DNA of 27,968 nt from a virus. A program made the position numbers and the translations under genes. Shown here piece after piece: positions 4,463 through 18,690 of the stretch (its first letter is position 1; each line of letters starts with the position of its first letter). The stretch covers positions 1 through 27,968 of IMG/VR virus record IMGVR_UViG_3300045738_001556. One strand, 5' to 3'. The notes beneath the pieces were generated by a model, which searched no databases, was not told where the DNA came from, and saw only the letters and a program-made list of their open reading frames with translations.

Positions 4463-4498
4463 ATGAAACAGAAAACAATATACGCAATCACACAATGA
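4463..4498 (+). CDS. Candidate 11-aa leader peptide
   Basis: An ATG at 4463, directly after the CACCACC leader, opens an 11-codon frame (MKQKTIYAITQ). Its TGA overlaps the ATG of the deoxyribonucleotidase gene in an ATGA arrangement (4495-4498). The leader element is spaced for this short frame rather than for the main gene, so the main gene may be translated by re-initiation. It may instead be unused sequence. Confidence 0.35.
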   Translation: MKQKTIYAITQ

Positions 4499-5127
4499 AA
4501 AGTTTACTAAAATACGGTAGTATCAAATTAATTCTGCTCGACATGGATGGCGTAATTGCTGATTTTCATACTCACATGTTGAAACATATGAACTCTTATA
4601 CTGGGAAAAATTTCACGTTGGAAGATTTGAAAAACTACCCCTGCCTTGCCAAGCTTTATGAATTTGATGATAATGATCATTTTTTCAACGAATTGTTGGT
4701 CTGCCACCCCAATTTTTGGCATGACATGCCTGCATATCCTTGGGCTACAAACCTGATTGACTGGTTACAACAACTAGCACCATTGCGTATTTGCACTTGC
4801 CCCCAGTCCCATCCTGATTCTTGGTCGGGAAAGAGACACTGGTTGAAAAAATACCCTTTTCAATGGACGGAAACGATAATGATGAAGGAAAAAGATATGT
4901 TGGCTCGTCCCGATGTCCTATTGATCGACGACCATAGTGATAACGTTGACAAATTTAAGGCAGCTGGAGGACAGGCGATTAAGGTTTCATCATACTGGAA
5001 TACACCCAATTTATCATATAGCACAGTGCTAGGCGAAATCCGAGATGGTTTGATCAAAATTCACAACAAAACTAAGTCTAATAACCAACTAACAAAACAC
5101 CCCACATACGAGGACGGAGATAAATAA
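4495..5127 (+). CDS. 5'(3')-deoxyribonucleotidase, HAD superfamily
   Basis: At 210 aa this fits the cytosolic type C 5'-nucleotidase family (NT5C). The HAD motifs are in order: motif I LLDMDGVIADF (about residues 14-24, nucleophile and acid/base Asp in DMD), motif II near CTCP (~101-104), a Lys in MMKEKDM and motif IV LLIDD (~142-146). The family removes phosphate from dNMPs in the cytoplasm. In this phage it could drain unwanted dNMPs, such as dAMP if the genome uses base Z, or supply nucleosides; that substrate is inference. The ATG overlaps a short upstream frame, and only 2 bases separate its stop from the next gene. Confidence 0.8.
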   Translation: MKSLLKYGSIKLILLDMDGVIADFHTHMLKHMNSYTGKNFTLEDLKNYPCLAKLYEFDDNDHFFNELLVCHPNFWHDMPAYPWATNLIDWLQQLAPLRICTCPQSHPDSWSGKRHWLKKYPFQWTETIMMKEKDMLARPDVLLIDDHSDNVDKFKAAGGQAIKVSSYWNTPNLSYSTVLGEIRDGLIKIHNKTKSNNQLTKHPTYEDGDK

Positions 5128-6842: not shown

Positions 6843-7736
6843 ATGAGCAAAATCATCATACTTAACAGCGACAATAACAGCGAAGACGCACTTAAGCTTT
6901 TTAAAAAGCAAATGCCCAAGGGAGCGGACTGCGTTGTTCTTATTGCGGATAAACGCCACAACTACCAAACCAAACGCAATCTCACAATGTTTGAAGGTTG
7001 TGAGGGCGAATTAATTTGTGGTAAGTCCTTGGCTACACCAGTCAAAAACAAAAAATTCGGCACTGGGATGTATGCTGGCGTTCCTAAGAAGAAATCCGAC
7101 TTCGAAGAAATGGAGTGGCGTGAAGAAGGTGTTCGTTCCACAAGCACTGGATACATCACCAAAATTGATGAAATTCTCAACACTGGTGTTTCTGACATCG
7201 AGGTTGACGGACATCTTCGTTCTCAATACACTGTTGAAGAAGCAATCAAGTTAATCCTTGTTGCTTTCCCTGACAAAGACCCTACTTCTGTTCGCAAGGT
7301 TCTTCGTGCTCGTCCTCGTGGAATTGAGAAGCAGAAGACGATTGTTATTGAACACGCTCCTCGTTGGGCCAAAGCAGTTGGCACTGGAGGTAGTGGTTTC
7401 ATGAATCTGATTGATGCACAATTGGAAGGCCGCAAGTTTTTCATGCTGGAAATCATTGAGGAAGTCCTTGAAAAATTCCCACTCGACCATGTTGGTGTCG
7501 TCCGCGACGAAAAGAAGCTTAACCGCTTGATTTCCAATCGCGCCCGCATCAACCGCAAGCAAGGACTTGATAGCGGAATCAAAGTGATTGTCCGCGTCAA
7601 GAAGGAAAAGCCAACAAAGAAGGTTGTTGCCAAAAAGCCTGCGAAGAAGGCTGCTAAAAAGGCTCCAGCTAAAAAGGCGACCAAGAAGGCCGCTAAAAAG
7701 ACAGCTGCCAAGAAGAACACAACGAAAGCCAAGTAA
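6843..7736 (+). CDS. Basic protein with a histone-H1-like C-terminal tail, 297 aa
   Basis: Residues 1-245 form a globular part that I do not recognise. Its features are an N-terminal KIIILNSDNNSEDALKLF, a VEEAIKLILVAFPDKDPTSVRKVLRAR segment that resembles a helical DNA-binding unit, and FMLEIIEEVLEKF near the end. Residues ~250-297 are almost only Lys, Ala, Thr and Pro in KKAAKKA-type repeats, as in histone H1 and bacterial H1-like proteins. DNA binding or nucleoid organisation is therefore likely; the specific role is unknown. The same kind of tail occurs in the SSB-like protein and the nuclease downstream. A strong terminator follows 17 bases after the stop, so the gene ends its transcript. 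Confidence 0.65.
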   Translation: MSKIIILNSDNNSEDALKLFKKQMPKGADCVVLIADKRHNYQTKRNLTMFEGCEGELICGKSLATPVKNKKFGTGMYAGVPKKKSDFEEMEWREEGVRSTSTGYITKIDEILNTGVSDIEVDGHLRSQYTVEEAIKLILVAFPDKDPTSVRKVLRARPRGIEKQKTIVIEHAPRWAKAVGTGGSGFMNLIDAQLEGRKFFMLEIIEEVLEKFPLDHVGVVRDEKKLNRLISNRARINRKQGLDSGIKVIVRVKKEKPTKKVVAKKPAKKAAKKAPAKKATKKAAKKTAAKKNTTKAK

Positions 7737-7753: not shown

Positions 7754-7786
7754 AAGCCCCCTTTCCACTTCGTGAGGGGGCTTTTT
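7754..7786 (+). terminator. Rho-independent terminator
   Basis: AAGCCCCCT (7754-7762) and AGGGGGCTT (7775-7783) form a perfect 9-bp stem with a 12-base loop, followed by a T-run through 7786. It lies 17 bases after the H1-tailed protein gene and separates it from the purine operon. Confidence 0.9.
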
Positions 7787-7819: not shown

Positions 7820-7848
7820 TTGACACGCTCCACGACGCCGTTTTAATT
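7820..7848 (+). promoter_or_regulatory. Promoter P3 for the lyase-PurZ-dUTPase operon
   Basis: TTGACA (7820-7825) and TTAATT (7843-7848) are 17 bases apart. An ACGCC/GGCGT dyad brackets the -10. CACCACCAC (7861-7869) and ATG 7875 follow. The preceding terminator supports a fresh transcription start here. Confidence 0.6.
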
Positions 7849-7874: not shown

Positions 7875-9002
7875 ATGGACAATCAACTTTCTTTATCCTC
7901 AATAATAACTAACAACAAATCCAAAAATCAATTTGCAGTTTTTGATGAATTTTTTGAATCGCGAGCTTGGGCTTTCTGGTTCGAACATTTATCTTGGCTG
8001 GAAAAAATGGGGTTTAAACATTCTTACAAGAAACAATCCCCAACAATTGAAGAAATTTCTAACAAAAAACATCGTATTGTTGAATATTTGCAAAAATTCG
8101 TCTGTTCCACTCAATTTTGCAATGCACATTGGGGATTGACTAGTTCGGATGTTGAAGACAACATTTATTTATCATGGTTGTCTAGTTACAACAGTCTAAT
8201 TCGAAACAACTCAATGACTGAGTTATTTCACCAACTTTTAAACAAAGAAGGGCCAAAATATTTGATGGCTAGAACTCACGGAGTTCCAGCTGAACCAAAG
8301 TTTTTTAAAAACGTGATGAATTGTTATGCTGCTGCACTACAACATCATATTGATATTGGACCTGCAATTATTAGTGCTAAAAGCCTTGGCGGTCCAGTTG
8401 GGTCACTTTCTCTTGATATGAGAAACTTTGGCCTAGATTTTGATGAATCAAGGTTTAAATGGAGCAAGTTTGGTTTAGCAATCCCAATCAACAAATGTCC
8501 TATCCAGTCAACTGACTACGTGGAAGAAATGCAAATTATTTCGTGGATGTCTGGTCTTGCTTCCATCATTCATAAAATTGCCAACGATATGAGACTCCAT
8601 ATCATGCTTGGTCAAGCCAAAATTATTCGTCCTGCTGGATCTGCTGGATCTAGCTCAATGGCGCATAAACATAATCCTATTATTTTTGAACGTGCTTGTT
8701 CTCGTTGCAAATCAGTGATGAATCAGGCAAATTTGATTCCCCAGTTGGCAGCGAGTAATTGGATGGAAAGATCACTTGATACGTCATGGAGTGTAAGACG
8801 GGTTTATGTTGAAGTGCCTACACAATTAGCTAACGCAATTCAAGATTTACATGATGGGATGAAACAACTTAGTTTTAACCAAGAAGACTGTATTTTAGCA
8901 ATTTCCTCTTCTAATCACCAACATTTGATGAAAACCAGTTTTGATGGCGAGAGTCGGTGGGCTGAATATTCCAAACAACTAAACGACTCAGAAGAACTTT
9001 AA
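7875..9002 (+). CDS. purB: Adenylosuccinate lyase homologue (PurB-like)
   Basis: PurB splits fumarate from succinyl-purine nucleotides. In the base-Z pathway the same chemistry converts N6-succino-2-amino-dAMP to dZMP. Lyase/fumarase superfamily motifs are in order: HWGLTSSDVEDN (85-96), ARTHGVPAEP (132-141, His135 in the conserved RTHG), and the signature loop GSSSMAHKHNP (258-268) that carries the catalytic serine. The following NWMERSLDTSWSVRR (295-309) resembles PurB. At 375 aa it is shorter than cellular PurB (about 430-460), with a compact N-terminus and C-terminus. It starts after promoter P3 and a CACCACCAC leader, 30 bases before PurZ. Described Z-phages are, as I recall, thought to use the host PurB, so a phage copy is notable. 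Specificity for the dZ intermediate is inference from its neighbour. Confidence 0.85.
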   Translation: MDNQLSLSSIITNNKSKNQFAVFDEFFESRAWAFWFEHLSWLEKMGFKHSYKKQSPTIEEISNKKHRIVEYLQKFVCSTQFCNAHWGLTSSDVEDNIYLSWLSSYNSLIRNNSMTELFHQLLNKEGPKYLMARTHGVPAEPKFFKNVMNCYAAALQHHIDIGPAIISAKSLGGPVGSLSLDMRNFGLDFDESRFKWSKFGLAIPINKCPIQSTDYVEEMQIISWMSGLASIIHKIANDMRLHIMLGQAKIIRPAGSAGSSSMAHKHNPIIFERACSRCKSVMNQANLIPQLAASNWMERSLDTSWSVRRVYVEVPTQLANAIQDLHDGMKQLSFNQEDCILAISSSNHQHLMKTSFDGESRWAEYSKQLNDSEEL

Positions 9003-9032
9003 TCTCCAACACATACACATAATATATACATA

Positions 9033-10439
9033 ATGGAAAAAGGAACAATACATATCGTTCAAGGTGGACTCTGGGGCAGTGAGGGCAAAGGCCAAGTTAC
9101 TGCACTAGTAGCTCAAGAAAAAAACCTTAGTCATGCAGTCCGCACTGGGTCAATTAACGCTGGTCATAACGTCCATATCGTTGATCAATATGGCAACATG
9201 CAGAAGATTGCATTACAGCAGATTCCAACTGCGGTAGTTCATCCAGACATTAATCTTTATATTGGTGCTGCTGCCTACATTTCAGAACCAATCCTCCGCA
9301 AGGAAATTGAATTAATCAAATTGCTCACTGGTGAAGACATTCGTCATCGACTTTATGTTGATTCTCGATGTGGTGTCGTTTCAGATGGAGACGCAGCAAC
9401 TTCGAAAGCGGCTGATCGACATACTCTGATGGGAGCAACTGGTAAGGGTTGTTCCGAAGCTATTGTTACAAAAATGCGACTTCGTGGCACTTCTGAAGAA
9501 CATTTGGCTATTAATAATGAAGATATAAAACATCATTGTTTGAATTTTGTTGATACTGCTCACCTATTGTATGAAGTTTTAAACAACGGTGAAGACATCA
9601 TCCTTGAAGGGACGCAAGGGACGTTACTCGACTTCAATACTGGTGAGTATCCGTTTGTTACGTCGCGTGGAACTCTTCCTGCTCACTGGTTGGCAGAAGC
9701 TGGATTGCCAATGCCAAGCGCAACAAACGGGTTTAAGACTAATATTATTATTGTGCTTCGGACAATGCCAATTCGGGTAGCTGGGTTTTCGGGGTCAATG
9801 GGAAACAAAGAAGTTTCTTGGCATCAGTTTCTCCAGCGTTTGCATGAATTCTCGCCCGAAAGTGTTGACTTTGGAATGATAGATTTGCAAAATTACCAAA
9901 CCGCTCGCATTAACACTCTTAAACAAGGATATCCTGATGTAATAACAAGTATTGGAATGGATGCTTGCCTTAACCCAAGAAAATTATCACCAAGTATTGC
10001 CAAAGACGACCTCTCTGTTCGGGATTTCTTGAGTAATTTTGAAATGGAAGCATTAATAACTTTTAGTTCTCATTACTCTGAATCGTTCTCACGTTTAGCC
10101 CCCTATATTGAGAAGACAACCGTTACTCTCAAACCTCGTCGATTGGCTGATATGGATTTCGATTGGCTCAAACGTGGAATTGAATTGTCAGGGTGTGACG
10201 AAATTTGGCTTGGGTTTCTAAATTACCTCGACCCAACACTCGCTGAAGAACAAGATTCAACAAAGTTGGCTTTGATGATTGCTGACATGGCTGGAAATTT
10301 TTATGACAAAGAATCAGACGACGAACTTGGCAAGTTTATTTCTGATCTTGATTCACTAGTGGGAATTGGCAAGGTTTCTCACGTTTCTACAGGACCACTA
10401 CCTAAACACCATATCAAAATTATTCATGGCGCATTCTAA
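9033..10439 (+). CDS. purZ: PurZ-like N6-succino-2-amino-2'-deoxyadenylate synthase (adenylosuccinate synthetase family)
   Basis: PurZ joins aspartate to the 6-position of dGMP, the first step towards dZMP; PurA does the same with IMP. This is clearly the PurA/PurZ fold: P-loop-like GGLWGSEGKGQ (11-21), NAGHN (42-46), GATGKG (134-139), EGTQGTLLDF (192-201) and YPFVTSRGT. The PurA motif WGDEGKGK, whose Asp is the catalytic base, reads WGSEGKG here (Ser16). Asp-to-Ser at this site is, to my recollection, the hallmark separating phage PurZ from PurA. At 468 aa it is much longer than typical phage PurZ (about 340-350) and nearer PurA (about 430). It lies between the lyase and dUTPase genes with a 14-base overlap with the latter. 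A divergent PurA remains possible, but the Ser substitution and phage context favour PurZ. Confidence 0.8.
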   Translation: MEKGTIHIVQGGLWGSEGKGQVTALVAQEKNLSHAVRTGSINAGHNVHIVDQYGNMQKIALQQIPTAVVHPDINLYIGAAAYISEPILRKEIELIKLLTGEDIRHRLYVDSRCGVVSDGDAATSKAADRHTLMGATGKGCSEAIVTKMRLRGTSEEHLAINNEDIKHHCLNFVDTAHLLYEVLNNGEDIILEGTQGTLLDFNTGEYPFVTSRGTLPAHWLAEAGLPMPSATNGFKTNIIIVLRTMPIRVAGFSGSMGNKEVSWHQFLQRLHEFSPESVDFGMIDLQNYQTARINTLKQGYPDVITSIGMDACLNPRKLSPSIAKDDLSVRDFLSNFEMEALITFSSHYSESFSRLAPYIEKTTVTLKPRRLADMDFDWLKRGIELSGCDEIWLGFLNYLDPTLAEEQDSTKLALMIADMAGNFYDKESDDELGKFISDLDSLVGIGKVSHVSTGPLPKHHIKIIHGAF

Positions 10440-10950
10440 ACCAAAAGTTCCTCACAACAAAGACCCGAAGCACATGTCTAATTTGGCCAAAAAATCAAAT
10501 GCTAATCGCATTAAGCGCCACATTACGTGTGAAATTTTTGTTGATCCTAAACATGCTGGTCGTATTCCAAGTCGGACGCGTAAAACAGACGCGGGTTTTG
10601 ATTTGGCTGTTGTTGAAAATACAATTATTAAAGTCGGTGAAACAAAAACGCTTTATACTGGGATTTGTGTTAAATGTCCAGAAGGGTATTTTTACAAGCT
10701 TGAACATCGATCTAGCACTAACAAGCGGGAATTGATTATGTGTGGGGCAGTTATTGATGCCACTTATTCAGGTCCGCTTTATATCAAACTTCACAATCGT
10801 GGAAACAAAGTTCAACACATCGAAGCGGGCGACCGACTCGCCCAATTGGTGTTTTATCCTCAAATTCACGTAAACTTTCTAGTTGTTGACAAATTCAAAG
10901 TAACCAAGGGTGACCGAGGTGAAAATGGGTTTGGATCAACTGGCAAATAA
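10426..10950 (+). CDS. dut: dUTP diphosphatase
   Basis: The enzyme hydrolyses dUTP to dUMP and pyrophosphate, keeping U out of DNA and feeding dTMP synthesis. All five trimeric dUTPase motifs are present in order: DAGFDLA, RSST (in place of the usual RSG/RSS), GAVIDATYSGPL, AGDRLAQLVF and the C-terminal P-loop-like RGENGFGSTG. The length (174 aa) includes a basic N-terminal extension of about 40 residues (KKSNANRIKRH...) beyond the core. The start at 10426 overlaps the end of purZ by 14 bases; an ATG at 10474 is the alternative and would leave a 34-base gap. Its place in the purine operon fits joint control of dNTP pools. Confidence 0.9.
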   Translation: MAHSKPKVPHNKDPKHMSNLAKKSNANRIKRHITCEIFVDPKHAGRIPSRTRKTDAGFDLAVVENTIIKVGETKTLYTGICVKCPEGYFYKLEHRSSTNKRELIMCGAVIDATYSGPLYIKLHNRGNKVQHIEAGDRLAQLVFYPQIHVNFLVVDKFKVTKGDRGENGFGSTGK

Positions 10951-10954
10951 ACAT

Positions 10955-10973
10955 CTGTCTAACTCTTAGACAG
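10955..10973. terminator. 8-bp inverted repeat after the dUTPase gene
   Basis: CTGTCTAA (10955-10962) and TTAGACAG (10966-10973) are perfect complements around three bases, four bases after the dut stop. With no U-tract it may be an mRNA 3'-end hairpin or an operator for the next gene, whose CCACA-rich leader begins at once. Confidence 0.45.
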
Positions 10974-11017
10974 TAAGACCACAGAAACCACAAAAACCAC
11001 AAAATAATAAATATATC

Positions 11018-11683
11018 ATGGCTCAGTTAATTGCACCCTCTATCTCAGGAGTTCGTATCGAAGATCTTGCTCCCGAAGAAGATTTTATCGCAACATGCCT
11101 TGGCGTTTACGACCTCTTCGGGGTCGAACGTCAAGCATTCCAATCTGTCGAAATGGAAACCAAAGACGTTACTCGTTTCGTCTTCGGTGTTTATGACGAA
11201 GAAGGCAACATGTATCTCGTTCAAACATTTGAGTTCACAATCTCAGGTGCTTCAGGCTCCAATCTCGTGAAATTCCTCCGTCAATGGCTGGGTAAGGCTC
11301 CAGAAATGGGCTGGGATTATTGCGAAATGATTGGAGAAGGAGCTTCTATCTCGGTTGAGAACAAAAGCGCCAAACAATCAGGGAAGGTTTACTCAACTAT
11401 ATCTTCGATTTCTCCTGTTCATAAAAAGCTGCAAGAGGATGTCTGGCCGACCGAACACTTCCAAGAACTTCTTGCTGAGTGTGAAGGCGAAAATGGTGGT
11501 GGTTCTACTGCTGCTGCGTCTTCCACATCTGAAGAAGTCGAAGCTGAAGAGGAGGTCGAGGCAGAAAAGCCTAAACCAAAGCCACGTCCTGTAAAGAAAG
11601 CTGCTAAAAAGGCAGTGAAGAAGCCAATTAAGAAAGCTGCTGCTCCTGCCAACGAAGTCTTGGACGAAGACGTCCCGTTTTAA
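11018..11683 (+). CDS. Single-stranded DNA-binding protein-like, with Lys/Ala tail and acidic SSB tip
   Basis: The N-terminal ~145 residues look like a beta-rich OB-type phage ssDNA-binding domain: FIATCLGVYDLFGVERQAF, VTRFVFGVYDEEGN, KVYSTISSISP. An acidic linker follows (EEVEAEEEVEAEKP), then a Lys/Ala/Pro tail (KPKPKPRPVKKAAKKAVKK). The protein ends LDEDVPF, which closely matches the DDDIPF tip by which bacterial SSBs recruit partner proteins. The combination supports an SSB role in replication. An H1-like tail placed before the tip is unusual. The leader has three spaced CCACA repeats. A structured intergenic region and terminator follow, suggesting the gene can be transcribed separately from the replication operon. 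Confidence 0.7.
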   Translation: MAQLIAPSISGVRIEDLAPEEDFIATCLGVYDLFGVERQAFQSVEMETKDVTRFVFGVYDEEGNMYLVQTFEFTISGASGSNLVKFLRQWLGKAPEMGWDYCEMIGEGASISVENKSAKQSGKVYSTISSISPVHKKLQEDVWPTEHFQELLAECEGENGGGSTAAASSTSEEVEAEEEVEAEKPKPKPRPVKKAAKKAVKKPIKKAAAPANEVLDEDVPF

Positions 11684-11801: not shown

Positions 11802-11812
11802 GAATTTAGATC

Positions 11813-11843
11813 CTCTTCCTCCTTAATGGGAGGGGAGCTTTTT
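11813..11843 (+). terminator. Rho-independent terminator between SSB and nuclease genes
   Basis: CTCTTCCTCC (11813-11822) pairs with GGAGGGGAG (11829-11837) with one bulge, followed by C and five T (11839-11843). It lies 33 bases before the nuclease start. It can be disrupted by an alternative pairing with 11791-11797 (see the structured RNA). Confidence 0.75.
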
Positions 11844-11875: not shown

Positions 11876-13171
11876 ATGGCAGTTTTAAAAGAAAGCAAAT
11901 ACGACGAGGAAGACAAATCACATTGGTATTGTTATATAACAGGCGATGCAGTGCATGAAGTCCCCTACGCTGATAAGAAGAGAAGAGAAGCAGGGGAAAC
12001 TCGGCCAACTACTCTGCGTGACGCCCGCAAGCTTAGACTTTGCAGATCCACCACTAATTTTTTAGGTCAATTACGTAAACCACAACTTGAAAAGTGGATT
12101 ATTGGCCAAGTAATCAAAGCAGCAGAGGCAAATCCTCGGAATCCGAACGAAGACGATTGGATGTATCAAAAACGAGTTACTCAAGCGAGTCGCACAATTG
12201 TTGAAGCTGCGTCATCTTATGGGACTTTTGTTCACAATTTAATCGCTGTAGTGTTAGAATCAGGGGGTTTTAATACTAAACCTTGGTTAGACGAATACGC
12301 GCCCGAAATTCATTCCTCCGCTGCCCCTATTTTGACTTGGCTAAAATCCAACAAAATTAACATCCGTAAGATCGAAAAAACTTACATTAACCAATTGCAA
12401 GGATACGGAGGGACGACTGACCTCATTTTTGACTCGGACGATATACGAGGAGTTTTTGATTTCAAGAGCAGACGCACAATACCTGACCAGCCTTTACAAG
12501 CCCGCGACGGCCAAGCGATGCAGCTCGCTTCATATGGTTCCTGCCACTACTGGGGAGGACGTCTCCCGACGAACATGGATCAAGTTCGAATCCTATCAAC
12601 AGGAAAATGGGCAATATGGGGGGCTAACCTTTACTTTTCAACTACCGAATTAGGCCGATTTGACATTGTGTGGTATCCTCCAAGTGTAATGGCTGCAGAG
12701 GGCATGGCTTATTATCATCTTTTGGAAATGCAAAAATTTCAAGATAAATGGGACCCTTGCGACCCTGATCGGTATAAGTTTATTGGCAAATCATCCTCGG
12801 TTAACGTTATTAAGTCTAATATGCCAGTAACTGATTTAGCTGCATCGCTCCGAGACTCTATGGAGGAAAAACTTAAAGGGTCTAAAGCTAAAGTTAAACC
12901 TATTAAAATCCTAACTCCTTCCGAACTAATCGAGCTTGGAAATAAAGCTAAAACTAAAGGAAAGAAGCCTAAACCCTCACCAATTAAGAAGACGACGACT
13001 AAAAAGGTTGTTACCTTACCTAAAACTTGGAAACCAGCAAAGAAGGCTGTCAAGAAATCTACGACTAAGAAGGTTCCGACTAAGAAGGTTGAGAAGAAAG
13101 AAAACCTTCTCTCACCAATGGAGAAAAGAATCGCTGCTAACCTCGCCAAAAAGAAAATTAAAAACTCATGA
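11876..13171 (+). CDS. PD-(D/E)XK nuclease, Cas4/RecB-like, with Lys-rich tail
   Basis: The core matches the RecB/Cas4-type fold: GTFVHNLI with His120, GGTTDLIFD with Asp182, VFDFKS with Asp195 and Lys197, and QAMQLASYG with Gln213/Gln216. That is the expected order of metal-binding Asp, D-x-K and the following Gln motif. There is no Cys cluster like that of true Cas4. Phage enzymes of this kind act as 5' or 3' exonucleases in recombination and replication. Residues ~340-420 form a Lys/Thr/Pro-rich H1-like tail (KKVVTLPKTWKPAKKAVKK), a long addition beyond the nuclease domain. The stop overlaps the next start (ATGA). The leader has no CACC element and no Shine-Dalgarno. Confidence 0.75.
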   Translation: MAVLKESKYDEEDKSHWYCYITGDAVHEVPYADKKRREAGETRPTTLRDARKLRLCRSTTNFLGQLRKPQLEKWIIGQVIKAAEANPRNPNEDDWMYQKRVTQASRTIVEAASSYGTFVHNLIAVVLESGGFNTKPWLDEYAPEIHSSAAPILTWLKSNKINIRKIEKTYINQLQGYGGTTDLIFDSDDIRGVFDFKSRRTIPDQPLQARDGQAMQLASYGSCHYWGGRLPTNMDQVRILSTGKWAIWGANLYFSTTELGRFDIVWYPPSVMAAEGMAYYHLLEMQKFQDKWDPCDPDRYKFIGKSSSVNVIKSNMPVTDLAASLRDSMEEKLKGSKAKVKPIKILTPSELIELGNKAKTKGKKPKPSPIKKTTTKKVVTLPKTWKPAKKAVKKSTTKKVPTKKVEKKENLLSPMEKRIAANLAKKKIKNS

Positions 13172-13878
13172 TTAACGAAATTAAATCCAAAACCGAGACT
13201 TATGTAATTGCGCTAGACTTAGCAACTACTTATGGATATTCAGTATTTAAAATTTCTCCTCCTTATGGAAAAATTGAACGAGTTATTTCGGGCAGAATTC
13301 GCCTTGATGCTCCACCAAAAAAGTCTCATTTGAAAGACAAACGTATGGAACTTTGCCGACGTTGCCAAAACCTTGAAGCTCATCTTGAGGAAATCATTTT
13401 TGAAGTTCCTATAGATTTTCAAATTGTTTTGGTTAAGGAAATGGGAGTTGCTGGAATGAAAGTAGGAGGTTGGACAAAAACGGTTCAAGCTGCCTTTGAT
13501 CAATCTTTCTTCATGACAGGGTTTTTGAACTTGGATAACTTATCTATTGCTGAATATTCGCCCGCGTCAATCAAAAAATGGGCAACTGGTAATGGGCAAC
13601 TGGCGAAGAACAAACCCGCAATGATTGAAGCTGCAAACCAAATGTGCAACAATCATAGTGTTTTGGACGACAATGAAGCCGACGCCGTATGCCTAGGCCA
13701 CTTAGTTGCAAGTTTCATTTCGTGTTGTATGATGCTTGGTTATAATTTTGAAACTGGTGATGACGAGAAATTTGCTAAGGTATTCACCAAATTCCGCAAA
13801 CTCTACACATACGATGACCCTTATGTTCATGGTGCATCTGATGAACTGATAAATCCAACTCAACTGAAGTTGTTATGA
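13168..13878 (+). CDS. RuvC-like Holliday junction resolvase
   Basis: At 236 aa this has an RNase H-fold resolvase pattern: a first beta-strand VIALDLATTYGYSVF with Asp17, a second acidic strand IVLVKEMGVAG, the PASIKKWATGNGQLAKNKPAMI helix, and DDNEADAVCLGH near the end of the core. These place the acidic residues as in RuvC, with G-(N/K)-G-x-A-x-K typical of the family. It would cut branched DNA during replication, recombination or packaging. The C-terminal ~45 residues are a non-conserved extension. Both ends overlap neighbours by 4 bases (ATGA), so nuclease, resolvase and polymerase are translationally coupled. Confidence 0.75.
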   Translation: MINEIKSKTETYVIALDLATTYGYSVFKISPPYGKIERVISGRIRLDAPPKKSHLKDKRMELCRRCQNLEAHLEEIIFEVPIDFQIVLVKEMGVAGMKVGGWTKTVQAAFDQSFFMTGFLNLDNLSIAEYSPASIKKWATGNGQLAKNKPAMIEAANQMCNNHSVLDDNEADAVCLGHLVASFISCCMMLGYNFETGDDEKFAKVFTKFRKLYTYDDPYVHGASDELINPTQLKLL

Positions 13879-15887
13879 TCCGTCAAGACGTCAGGAAAAA
13901 TCTACTTCTCTTCCCCATCAACGAGGTTGCTGATAACATCACATCAGACACCGAATGGCGACGAGTAGATGCACCAGTCAAATTCACCACCAAAATCAAG
14001 TATGATGTGGTGGGTGTTGATTTTGAAACGGTGTTTGATAAAGATTTGTCACTTCGGAAGATGTCTAATTGGGATTATGTTAGTAGTCCAGCATTTGAGT
14101 CTTACCTAGTGTCGCTAGTCTGGTATTGTCATGAAGATGGAAGTTTTTGGGTTTGGACAGGGAGACCAGAGGCCGCACCTTGGGGAGACATCATTGATAA
14201 AGTGTTTGTTAGTCACAATGCCAGTTTTGACGAGTTGGTCATGAGGAGGTTGTATAAAGATAAAATTGTATCACATCCTGTTCCTGATAAATGGGTTTGT
14301 TCGATAGATTTGGCTCGGTGGTTTCAAATGAAAGGTTCTCTTGATTATGTTGCTAAACAATTGTTAGGAATGGAGATGGATAAATCTGTTTTGAAAAGAA
14401 TGGCTGGGGGAACAGCAACTGAAGAAGAATCTAAGAATTACGTTTATCTCGATTCAATGGCGACTTGCTTAATTTGGATTTGTTATTATAGAGAATGGCC
14501 AGTCCAAGAAGTTTTCATTTCTATCCGCCAGCGCCGTGCTAATTACCGAGGGTTTGGATATGATATTGAGTTAAGTGCAAGTGGCAGAAAACAAATGGTT
14601 GGCCTTATGTTGAAGAACCTAAAAGAGATTCCATGGGGAGGGGTTAAACCTCCTACCAGTAAAAAAGAATTCAATATACACGTTTCAAAAGGTGGTATTC
14701 TTCCTCCCATTTCGGTTTCAATTGATGATCCTGAAACTAAAAATTGGATGAGAATGCACCCAAAATATACTCCTGTTTTAAATGCTATGAATGAATATTC
14801 TAAAGCGCAACAGGTGCACCAGACTTTAACCTCGTTAGAACCAAAAGTTCGATCTGATGGAACTATTCCGTTTGAAATGCGGTATTGCAAAGCCCCCCAT
14901 ACTGCTCGATTCCAGTCGGCTAAAGGGGTCCGCATGCAAAACTTGGATTCTAGGTCTTTCTATGATTTCAATTTAAGACATACTTATTTGCCAAGAAAAG
15001 GTAAAGTGTTTATAACTTATGACCTCGGCCAAATTGAACCACGAGTATTGGCGTGGGCAGCAGGTGATACAAAGTTTTTAAGTGAATGCGCACGAGGAAT
15101 CTCCCCCTACGAAGTGCATGCTAACTCTTATATGGGATATGTGTTTGATTCTGCAGTGAAATTGAAGAAGAAAAATCCTCAACTTTACGCGTTAGCTAAG
15201 GCAAGGACTTTGGCGTTAGGGTATCAAGCTTGGGCACCTCGGTTCTGTGAAATGGCGGAACAAATGGCAGGACTTAGACTAGATCCTGATCATAAAGTAG
15301 TTCAAATGAATAATGGAGACTTTATTACGTTTGACAGAGCTAAAACATTTTTAACCCCTAAAGAACTGGGTGAAGTTTACGTATTTCCTTCTGGCGTCGA
15401 ATCCTGCCTTGACTATCGTAGGAAAAATACTCTAGTCACTGATTTCTGGGAAGAACAAGAAACTGCAATTGCAGCTTGTGTTGGTGAAAACTACTTCGTC
15501 CCCCTTCCTGCTGGAGGTAATATTCGTTATTATAACGTTACTGAAGAAGGTGGCCACAATGGTAAACCTACAATGATGGCTTGGGTGGTTAAAGGATCTC
15601 AGAATCCTAAAGAATATAAAGATTTTTATGGGGGTAAGCTGACTGAGAATTACGTCCAGCGTGTTAGCCGTGACGTATTGGTTGACCGAATACGCGACAT
15701 TTTAGTTGAAATACCTCACATTGACCTTAGCTGGACGGTTCATGATGAAGTCTTGTTTGAATGTGACGAGGATGTTGCGGAAGAAACGGACAAATTAGTT
15801 AGACAAATTTTTACTACTAGCCCGAAATGGGCACCCGATCTGCCTCTTGATGCTGATGGCGGAATTCAACTTCACTACGACAAATAA
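13875..15887 (+). CDS. Family A DNA polymerase with 3'-5' exonuclease domain
   Basis: This 670-aa enzyme has an intact proofreading domain: ExoI VDFET (Asp49, Glu51), ExoII SHNASFDE (113-120) and ExoIII YLDSMA (191-196). The polymerase motifs are A TYDLGQIEPRVLAW (381-394), B AKARTLALGYQAW (441-453) and C VHDEVLFE (622-629). Aligned as K442-x3-L446-x3-Y450, the residue matching E. coli Pol I Phe762 is Leu. Motif A has Gly and Pro where Ser and Leu are usual. It is the likely replicative polymerase. In characterised Z-phages a PolA-type enzyme (DpoZ) copies Z-DNA, and this is the obvious candidate here. Whether it selects dZTP over dATP cannot be read from the sequence. Confidence 0.88.
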   Translation: MIRQDVRKNLLLFPINEVADNITSDTEWRRVDAPVKFTTKIKYDVVGVDFETVFDKDLSLRKMSNWDYVSSPAFESYLVSLVWYCHEDGSFWVWTGRPEAAPWGDIIDKVFVSHNASFDELVMRRLYKDKIVSHPVPDKWVCSIDLARWFQMKGSLDYVAKQLLGMEMDKSVLKRMAGGTATEEESKNYVYLDSMATCLIWICYYREWPVQEVFISIRQRRANYRGFGYDIELSASGRKQMVGLMLKNLKEIPWGGVKPPTSKKEFNIHVSKGGILPPISVSIDDPETKNWMRMHPKYTPVLNAMNEYSKAQQVHQTLTSLEPKVRSDGTIPFEMRYCKAPHTARFQSAKGVRMQNLDSRSFYDFNLRHTYLPRKGKVFITYDLGQIEPRVLAWAAGDTKFLSECARGISPYEVHANSYMGYVFDSAVKLKKKNPQLYALAKARTLALGYQAWAPRFCEMAEQMAGLRLDPDHKVVQMNNGDFITFDRAKTFLTPKELGEVYVFPSGVESCLDYRRKNTLVTDFWEEQETAIAACVGENYFVPLPAGGNIRYYNVTEEGGHNGKPTMMAWVVKGSQNPKEYKDFYGGKLTENYVQRVSRDVLVDRIRDILVEIPHIDLSWTVHDEVLFECDEDVAEETDKLVRQIFTTSPKWAPDLPLDADGGIQLHYDK

Positions 15888-16521: not shown

Positions 16522-16707
16522 ATGGCCGCTCAACTCCTATTTAATCGAAAACAACCTGTCGCTAGGTATCGATATTTTTATCGTTGCACCTATTGTCCCA
16601 AGGAATTCGAAACTTTGACCGAACTCACAAATATGAAACATGTGCAATACCCAGATGGTTGCCATACTAAAAGTTTAAAACTTCTTAAGAAAGTTAAGTT
16701 ACTATGA
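16522..16707 (+). CDS. Small putative zinc-finger protein, 61 aa
   Basis: The sequence YRCTYCPKEFETLTELTNMKHVQYPDGCH has a C-x2-C followed by His and a C-H pair, plausible zinc ligands (inference). The C-terminus is basic (LKLLKKVKLL). The start at 16522 (MAAQLLFNRK), one base after the previous stop, is preferred over an in-frame ATG at 16474 inside the previous gene. The stop overlaps the primase start in an ATGA junction, which suggests a replication-related DNA-binding role; this is inference. Confidence 0.5.
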   Translation: MAAQLLFNRKQPVARYRYFYRCTYCPKEFETLTELTNMKHVQYPDGCHTKSLKLLKKVKLL

Positions 16708-17579
16708 AGTTAACTGACGCGTTTAACAATTGGTTGTCTGAAGACTCCAGCACCTGCGATTCTCTCCACCGAGACTTATTTACTGCTGCCAACTATTTAA
16801 TTGAAGAGGGACGACCAGACGAAGAAATTTTTGATTTTATGCGTCAGGCTTGCAATCGAGTAGGAGAAAGAAACGTATCAGATCGGGAAATTAAATCTTG
16901 TGTCAAATGCGCCCGCTCTTACAAGAAAGGAACTCAAGTGCTGGAGACTTGGCCAAAACCAGACCCTGTATTCCAAAACTCAGTAATTAACTATTACTCG
17001 GACGTTAATTTGCTAGAAATAGCTAGGTTGGAACAGGCCACCACTATTCAGGACTCAGCTCATTACATCAAAGAATTATATGACGAAGACGAGTTGGTTT
17101 GCCTCGGTCTGGAAATGAATCGTCCTGTTACGGTTTCTAGAAAAGAAGCAATTGAGTATGTAAGTGAGTTTGCCATTCCTTATATTGTGCCGTCTCCAAT
17201 GTCGGAAGTGTCAGGGTTGACCGAACAAGGAGATAAATCACCTAGAACTAAGGCCAATACAGGGGACCGACGATATTTAGTTATTGAATTTGATTATGCT
17301 GAAATGGAGCAACAACTAGCCTATCACCTTTGGTTAGATTCCGTTATCCCTTGCATGTTCATTGTATATTCTGGTGGTAAGTCTTTCCATGGATGGTATA
17401 ATGTAGAAAATTTAAGCGAAGCAGAATCGAAGGCATTTTTCACAAGTGCAGTTAAACTGGGAGCAGATAGAGTAACTTGGTCAAAGTGCCAATTATGCCG
17501 CTTGCCATCTGGAAACAATATTAAGTATAAAAAACAACAAACAGTAATAGGGAGAACTTTTTTCGATGCCACGGAATGA
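16704..17579 (+). CDS. Archaeo-eukaryotic-type (PrimPol-like) primase
   Basis: The C-terminal part has the AEP pattern: LVIEFDYA (192-199, Glu195/Asp197 as the first metal ligands), SGGKSFHGWY (223-232, the S-x-H nucleotide-binding motif) and CQLCRLPSGNN (262-272), which closely resembles the R-x-P region of phage primases. The N-terminal ~75 residues are a helical segment with C-x2-C in SCVKCARSYKK. It would make primers for the family A polymerase. It overlaps the helicase gene by 14 bases. The split into separate primase and helicase genes, rather than a fused primase-helicase, is notable but not unique. Confidence 0.7.
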   Translation: MKLTDAFNNWLSEDSSTCDSLHRDLFTAANYLIEEGRPDEEIFDFMRQACNRVGERNVSDREIKSCVKCARSYKKGTQVLETWPKPDPVFQNSVINYYSDVNLLEIARLEQATTIQDSAHYIKELYDEDELVCLGLEMNRPVTVSRKEAIEYVSEFAIPYIVPSPMSEVSGLTEQGDKSPRTKANTGDRRYLVIEFDYAEMEQQLAYHLWLDSVIPCMFIVYSGGKSFHGWYNVENLSEAESKAFFTSAVKLGADRVTWSKCQLCRLPSGNNIKYKKQQTVIGRTFFDATE

Positions 17580-18690
17580 CTTTAGAAACGGAATCAAGGA
17601 ATTAAGGGCTAACCACCCAGTTCCAACACCTATAGAAACGACGCCACGGAAGATACCCAAGAAAGGTTTTGAGTCTGAGGAGGTGCCAGTGTCCCTACCC
17701 CCTATCCTCTCGGCCAAGGAGATATCAAACGCTAAAAGGAAGACACCAGCTCTTCTTGTCAAAAACCTCCTCCACCGTGGATGTAAGATGTCAATATCTG
17801 GAGGATCAAAGTCTTTTAAATCTTGGGCTATGATTGACCTCGGCCTGAGTATCGCTACTGGGAAACCTTGGTGGGGGTTAGAATGCAAAAAGGGACGCGT
17901 TCTATATATTAATTTTGAGCTTATGGGAAGTTTCATGCGGGAGCGTATTGATGCTGTGTGTGAGGCAAAAAATATGGGGCTACCCGAAGATTTTCTTATT
18001 TGGAATCTTCGGAGTCAATGTTATTCACTCCCTGCATTGACTGCTGCCCTGCTCGAAAGAAAAGATCAACTGGGCGATTTAGATCTTATTATCATTGATC
18101 CAATCTATAAAGCTCTCGGTGATCTAGATGAAAATTCTAACTCCGACATCAATCAGTTGATGAAACAAATTGAAGATTTAGGCGAGGTATTTGATTCAAC
18201 TACAGTCTTTGGGAGTCACTTTGCCAAGGGTAATTCCGCACAAAAATCTTCCAAAGATCGTGCTGCTGGTGCTGGTGTTTTTAGCAGAGACCCTGATGTG
18301 CTAATTTCATTAAATGCACATGAGGATGATGATCATTATGTTATTGAATCGGATTTGCGTTATTTACCCCGTATTCCTCCGTTTGTGATGAAATGGGAGT
18401 TCCCTATTATGGTTCCTGCTGAAGGTAAAGACCCTAGGCGATTAAAGGGACTACTACCAGTTAAAAACGATAAGAAGGCCAGTCCCGAAAATGACGCGTT
18501 TAACTCGGACCAAGTGTTTGATTGTCTGCCGTTAGAAGGATGCAACGATGCCTATTGGAGAAAACTAGTTATTGATGCATTGGGGTCTGCTGGTGCTGCA
18601 TACTACCGTTGCAAACAACAATTGCTAGATGCTAAACGGATCGAACTAAGGGGCCATAAATTTTACCCTACCCGACTTAGTGCGGGTTAA
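17566..18690 (+). CDS. RepA-like (AAA_25) replicative helicase
   Basis: A RecA-fold NTPase of the RSF1010 RepA type, which forms hexameric helicases. Walker A is SGGSKSFKS (78-86) and Walker B is LDLIIIDP (172-179). Between them is YINFELMG (114-121), with the Glu typical of AAA_25. Further on come VFGSHFAKG (His218, motif similar to DnaB H4/sensor) and AAGAGVFSRDPDVLI. The C-terminal ~60 residues (YWRKLVIDALGSAGAAYYRC...) look like a small winged-helix-type domain. It pairs with the upstream primase. Its stop overlaps the stop of the convergent tail gene by 3-4 bases, ending the plus-strand replication block. An ACCCG/CGGGT dyad (18670-18687) spans the junction. Confidence 0.8.
   Translation: MPRNDFRNGIKELRANHPVPTPIETTPRKIPKKGFESEEVPVSLPPILSAKEISNAKRKTPALLVKNLLHRGCKMSISGGSKSFKSWAMIDLGLSIATGKPWWGLECKKGRVLYINFELMGSFMRERIDAVCEAKNMGLPEDFLIWNLRSQCYSLPALTAALLERKDQLGDLDLIIIDPIYKALGDLDENSNSDINQLMKQIEDLGEVFDSTTVFGSHFAKGNSAQKSSKDRAAGAGVFSRDPDVLISLNAHEDDDHYVIESDLRYLPRIPPFVMKWEFPIMVPAEGKDPRRLKGLLPVKNDKKASPENDAFNSDQVFDCLPLEGCNDAYWRKLVIDALGSAGAAYYRCKQQLLDAKRIELRGHKFYPTRLSAG

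Follow-up and report, generated by a model that had tools for sequence, protein, structure and literature searches.

A probable operon for 2-aminoadenine DNA in an uncultured phage, with a synthetase outside the two published phage clades

Introduction

Only rarely is one base of a genome replaced completely; Z-DNA, in which 2-aminoadenine (Z) stands in place of adenine, is such a case. In the accounts of Z synthesis consulted here, the lyase step is the task of the host. A survey of NCBI viruses divided phage PurZ into two clades that differ in the genes used to clean the nucleotide pool (PMC12884076). Here, we asked whether a phage cluster joining a PurZ-type synthetase to its own PurB-like lyase and a dUTPase homologue forms an operon for Z-DNA, and how dATP might then be excluded. 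The cluster lies in a 27,968-base IMG/VR virus record (IMGVR_UViG_3300045738_001556), analysed at full length and hereafter termed the window, which may be a fragment.

Gene layout of the purB-purZ-dut locus

The sequence-only reading of this locus had described three ORFs, encoding a PurB-like lyase, a PurA/PurZ synthetase and a dUTPase, near a family A polymerase. Family matches confirmed all three ORFs in their places as well as the polymerase (Table 1), in which 3'-5' exonuclease motifs (DFET, HNASFD, YVYLD) are present and the polymerase motifs retained. The dut gene itself stood, but the start at 10366 was that of the longest frame; ATG 10426, giving a 14-nt overlap with the purZ stop, or ATG 10474, leaving a 34-nt gap, is likelier. 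The genes run head to tail, with 30 nt between purB and purZ. A shared promoter, also proposed from the sequence, is plausible but was unconfirmed. A terminator-like hairpin stands before purB, and the next well-formed terminator-like site comes after the gene that follows dut. The TTGACA hexamer at 7820 is not paired with a convincing -10 element, and promoter-like matches in the window were at chance level (34 versus 32.1), so co-transcription of purB-purZ-dut is likely only.

Table 1 Features of the window that bear on the proposed pathway.
Feature	Coordinates	Strand	Basis or remark
NT5C-type 5'-deoxynucleotidase	4495..5127	+	HAD fold, DMDGV motif; PF06941 E=1.7e-15, phrog_2643
Terminator-like hairpin with T-run, 5' of purB (upstream edge of unit)	7759..7780	+	consensus match only
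purB-like adenylosuccinate-lyase family protein, 375 aa	7875..9002	+	PF00206, TIGR00928, conserved residues
PurZ-type synthetase, 468 aa	9033..10439	+	PF00709, phrog_1211, NCBIfam PurZ, active-site residues, trees
Trimeric-type dUTPase homologue	10426 or 10474..10950	+	PF00692
Replication-initiation NGO0469-family-like protein	11018..11683	+	adjoins dut in L018 too (57% over 130 aa)
Terminator-like hairpin with T-run, possible downstream edge of unit	11811..11837	+	consensus match only
Phage exonuclease	11876..13171	+	phrog_298
RuvC-like resolvase	13168..13878	+	phrog_159
Family A DNA polymerase with 3'-5' exonuclease	13875..15887	+	family match, motifs
Two ORFs for primase and helicase (16704-17579, 17566-18690)	16704..18690	+	phrog_2597

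Searches of the window found no tRNA genes, and PADLOC returned nothing relevant. Positions 6843-7736 encode a Lys/Ala-rich protein with a KKAAKK tail and a weak likeness to L018:4711-5454, which occupies the same relative place in the closest relative (L018, below).

The synthetase falls in an apparent third Ser-type phage clade

In a 70-row tree, the window synthetase and those of 12 IMG/VR contigs formed a clade of their own (support 100/99), separate from PurZ (phiVC8, S-2L, SH-Ab, PMBT28, ZP6) and from PurZ0 (Ghobes, Wayne, Hiyaa, Goodman). Four contigs from a later scan brought the clade to the window plus 16 uncultured phage contigs; the synthetase of one later-added member (L176) is identical to that of L043. 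When archaeal Asp-type PurA was added, all Ser-type sequences came together (99/95) and the window clade was recovered at 100/100. The synthetase thus stood apart from both the bacterial and the archaeal Asp-type PurA; a place among these would have spoken for an ordinary IMP-using enzyme. The PurZ0 sequences grouped by themselves at 100/100, and the window was not among them. In AU tests run on a 39-row set, forcing the window clade beside PurZ was marginally rejected (p=0.043), while forcing it beside PurZ0 was unrejected (p=0.27). As the survey names two phage clades (PMC12884076), the window clade appears to be a third, its members here known from metagenomes only. These trees also contained further Ser-type groups outside both published phage clades.

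Relatives in viral contigs were retrieved with three kinds of query: a single-sequence PurZ query returned one, and two-sequence and clade alignments returned the clade. In a search of 50,697 phage genomes, 198 records matched, every one of them below 60%; of the records listed, none was more than about 33% identical to the synthetase across half of the enzyme. Ser-type PurZ-like proteins, some of 530-560 aa, were also encoded on bacteria-assigned contigs (L114, L117-L128; Rhizobium, Mycoplana, Streptosporangiaceae, Prevotella, Lachnospiraceae and others), and could be prophage or cellular; in the two genomes checked (L114, L120), a second, full-length synthetase match occurs elsewhere. Three Nanoarchaeota/Woesearchaeota-type contigs (L113, L115, L116) carry Ser-type synthetases; in the 70-row tree these joined the PurZ side as its sister group, with modest support (84/90).

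Active site and predicted chemistry of the synthetase

The synthetase matched PF00709 (E=1.1e-32), phrog_1211 '2-aminooxy adenylosuccinate synthetase' (E=5.9e-51) and the NCBIfam PurZ model NF038379. Its score against the latter, 165 bits, is below the curated cut-off of 300 bits, so NCBIfam does not name the protein PurZ; the archaeal PurA model scored 161 bits. The Ser substitution that had been noted in the PurA homologue is present: in the motif WGSEGKG, S16 occupies the position of the PurA catalytic Asp, and this position is Ser in 13/13 clade members aligned. With S-2L PurZ as the reference for residue mapping (reference residues from PMC8342488), N42, A43, T136, Q195, R248, V249 and the T362-T365 loop of the synthetase all match. 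The latter is the TTVT aspartate loop, including its PurZ-specific first Thr. From these residues, the enzyme would convert dGMP, aspartate and ATP to dSMP.

The nucleotide pocket has the F-x-N form (F395, N397) of the ATP-using phiVC8 type, where PurA has K-x-D, and on this basis ATP use is predicted for the window synthetase. PurZ0 reportedly uses GTP. One clade member (L019) has Asp in place of Asn in this pocket (D395), which suggests that ATP/GTP preference may have changed within the clade. In its dutZ/dmtZ section, PMC12884076 assigns ATP to PurZ0 and GTP to PurZ, at odds with the introduction of the same paper (PurZ uses ATP); the two were probably swapped.

A structural search had been suggested as a way of placing the homologue with PurZ or PurA. 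An AlphaFold2 model built from 13 clade sequences (pLDDT 78.9, pTM 0.84) found both among its best matches, which span PurA (Pyrococcus 5k7x), PurZ0 (7vf6) and phiVC8 PurZ (6fko).

A lyase encoded by the phage

The 375-aa lyase matched PF00206 (E=4.8e-15) and TIGR00928 purB, the latter at 100.5 bits against a curated cut-off of 326 bits that it did not reach. Conserved with respect to E. coli PurB are TSSD, ARTHG (H135), GSSSM..KHNP and R299/R308, so that the catalytic His and signature-loop Ser/Lys/Asn are retained (H66, H135, GSSSM, K265, N267), while most of the C-terminal domain is apparently absent. We infer that the lyase may act on dSMP. Branches in the PurB tree were long and its deeper joins were not used. 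Annotated PurB-like lyases also occur in the genomes of Ghobes and Hiyaa, and our literature search found no paper testing such a lyase. Flavobacterium phage MaF61 carries PurB with no PurZ seen nearby.

Gene neighbourhood among relatives and known Z-DNA systems

The closest relative, L018, is a 37-kb record, possibly a fragment, whose purB, purZ and dut proteins are ~34-43% identical to those of the window (39-46% for the synthetase alone, depending on the columns used). Its gene order is that of the window (NT5C, purB, purZ, dut, NGO0469-like, exonuclease, RuvC-like, polA, primase, helicase; 25-57% protein identity), and the part without a parallel holds what look like structural genes. L174, on another branch of the clade, has the order dut-purB-purZ, with purB overlapping purZ. 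No DatZ (PF12917) match was obtained in the window, L018 or L174, which have Dut and PurB instead. For the window this bears out the reported lack of visible DatZ or MazZ: neither PF12917 nor DUF5664 (PF18909) matched anywhere in the record, fragment though it may be. DatZ was also absent from L024 and L173, both short contigs. Nine clade records do carry DatZ (L003, L019, L020, L021, L022, L023, L041, L042, L175), with a family A polymerase nearby and in some cases DUF5664. Unlike the window, these nine have no PurB beside purZ. NT5C was detected in the window and L018 (a weak match there, 25 bits) but in none of the 12 other clade records searched.

Across 143 viral PurZ loci, PurB occurred in 22, and these had Dut in 16/22 cases and DatZ in 0/22. 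Dut and DatZ occurred together in only three of the 143 loci, against about 13 expected; Fisher values for this ignore kinship, and the exclusion was insignificant once kinship was considered, in a test that had too few independent pairs. Mapped on the tree, PurB beside PurZ changed six times or more, and a PurZ0-like IMG/VR subgroup (L060, L064, L068, L069, L098) has the genes adjacent in a differing order, purZ-purB-dut. From these changes and the differing order, the set apparently came together on more than one occasion. In a 103-kb phage contig (L190; locus at 8438-11086), purB ends 64 nt before a Ser-type purZ, with no Dut or DatZ seen within 10 kb.

Two known systems resemble the window. 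The genomes of the Gordonia phage Ghobes and the Streptomyces phage Hiyaa likewise each encode a Ser-type synthetase and a PurB-like lyase, together with a protein of dUTPase fold and a family A polymerase. However, the window synthetase lies outside the PurZ0 clade, its pocket has Asn (N397) where PurZ0 has Asp as in PurA, the three window genes are directly adjacent and the window polymerase has Tyr rather than Phe in helix O; no DmtZ was found. With the PurZ/DatZ/MazZ cluster of S-2L, phiVC8 and SH-Ab 15497 it shares Ser at the catalytic base, the TTVT loop and the ATP-type pocket, but the window record has no DatZ or MazZ match and has its own PurB and Dut. Because PurB, PurZ0 and Dut already occur together in Ghobes and Hiyaa, the window set is a variant of a Z-DNA system already known. 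The cluster itself is confirmed, and its interpretation as a further version of that system, rather than a new kind, is supported as far as sequence can show.

A dUTPase homologue possibly in place of DatZ

The third gene matched PF00692 (E=5.5e-26), retains dUTPase motifs, and has as its best solved-structure match an entry deposited as a dUTPase. The best-studied precedent is DutZ of the PurZ0 phages Ghobes and Wayne, which has the dUTPase fold yet hydrolyses dATP and dGTP, and also cleaves dUTP (PMC12884076). As this precedent 'dUTPase' is itself a dATP/dGTP hydrolase, the third gene may supply the missing DatZ/MazZ function, and we propose by analogy that Dut is a DutZ-like dATP/dGTP diphosphohydrolase. 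The sequence-only guess that another gene set excludes dATP is supported by sequence, phylogeny and neighbourhood. In the Dut tree, which included 11 reference dUTPases, the window and L018 grouped with the PurZ-linked Duts (91/74) and were the first to branch there, a placement compatible with DutZ kinship at only moderate support. The Dut motifs of the window are not diagnostic for DutZ. Two candidate DutZ marks, a shortened base-recognition hairpin and RSS for RSG, were rejected since some ordinary dUTPases share each of them. A single-sequence Dut search found no relatives. The Dut of L174 (8193-8915) has an extra ~90-aa N-terminal domain that resembles, by eye, DUF5664-type helical pyrophosphohydrolases.

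The strongest alternative, which we consider unlikely, is that Z is made as proposed while dut encodes an ordinary dUTPase, dATP being excluded by a gene outside the contig, an unrecognised gene of the window or the polymerase alone. The motifs and structural match of Dut, the cleavage of dUTP by known DutZ and the possibly fragmentary 28-kb record all fit this. Against it, the longer L018 also has no DatZ match, with apparently structural genes in its non-parallel part; Dut directly adjoins purZ in L018 and purB-purZ in L174; and Dut and DatZ seldom co-occur.

A polymerase outside the DpoZ types

At the steric-gate position of helix O, the polymerases of the window and L018 have Tyr where DpoZ has Phe. 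As Phe at this position is the only mark common to both DpoZ groups (PMC8599892), the window polymerase is not classifiable as DpoZ; either it became Z-selective in another way or the choice of Z is made by the nucleotide pools. Use of Z could then be partial or regulatory, with dZMP made and adenine replaced only in part by a polymerase that is not Z-selective. We judge this rather improbable: the polymerase has no DpoZ Phe, and that of S-2L is unselective and relies on DatZ (PMC8599892), but in S-2L an unselective polymerase plus a dATP-removing enzyme suffices for full replacement, and Dut with NT5C could do likewise.

Proposed pathway

Taken as a gene set leading from dGMP to dZMP, as first suggested, the cluster is supported by sequence, phylogeny and gene neighbourhood, and we consider it probable that it is a phage operon for Z-DNA working as follows. 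Dut would hydrolyse dGTP to dGMP and dATP to dAMP, as published DutZ does. PurZ would join dGMP to aspartate, with ATP, to give dSMP, as its active-site residues imply, and the phage PurB would split dSMP into dZMP and fumarate, making the phage independent of host PurB. NT5C, the weakest step, may drain dAMP to dA. Host kinases would then supply dZTP, which the phage polymerase would copy opposite T, and Z would be expected in virion DNA. Counting against this are the polymerase Tyr, though Phe is not known to be required; the possibility that the window, and perhaps L018, is a fragment, with DatZ or MazZ elsewhere; the moderate Dut tree; the unreached NCBIfam PurZ and purB cut-offs; and a Dut/DatZ exclusion that is insignificant with kinship.

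It is very improbable that the two enzymes merely salvage purines (IMP to AMP) in the ordinary way, raising host nucleotide supply with DNA bases unchanged. In favour of this, the lyase is homologous to PurB in general, the archaeal PurA and PurZ models score nearly equally and MaF61 has PurB with no PurZ seen nearby. Against it, the Asp required for IMP activation is Ser throughout the aligned clade, both the aspartate loop and the nucleotide pocket resemble those of PurZ, the clade is placed outside Asp-type PurA and nine other members carry DatZ.

More tentatively, and with slightly less than even confidence, the Z-DNA operon may represent a third, independently assembled system, in which one operon (Dut, PurZ, PurB) leads from dGTP to dZMP, Dut and NT5C replace DatZ, the polymerase is of neither known Z-selective type and the ATP-type pocket arose separately from that of PurZ. 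A third clade with compact gene sets offers natural replicates for asking which of PurB, DatZ/Dut and a Z-selective polymerase adenine replacement needs, and such a short operon, which includes a lyase, may be useful as a cassette for Z-DNA production in laboratory bacteria.

Translation leaders of the window

A Shine-Dalgarno-like motif was present in only 4/31 inspected gene leaders of the window (gene starts such as 6608, 7875, 9033 and 24381), and several leaders are CACCACCACA-rich just 5' of the ATG. Together, these leaders suggest a host with non-SD initiation.
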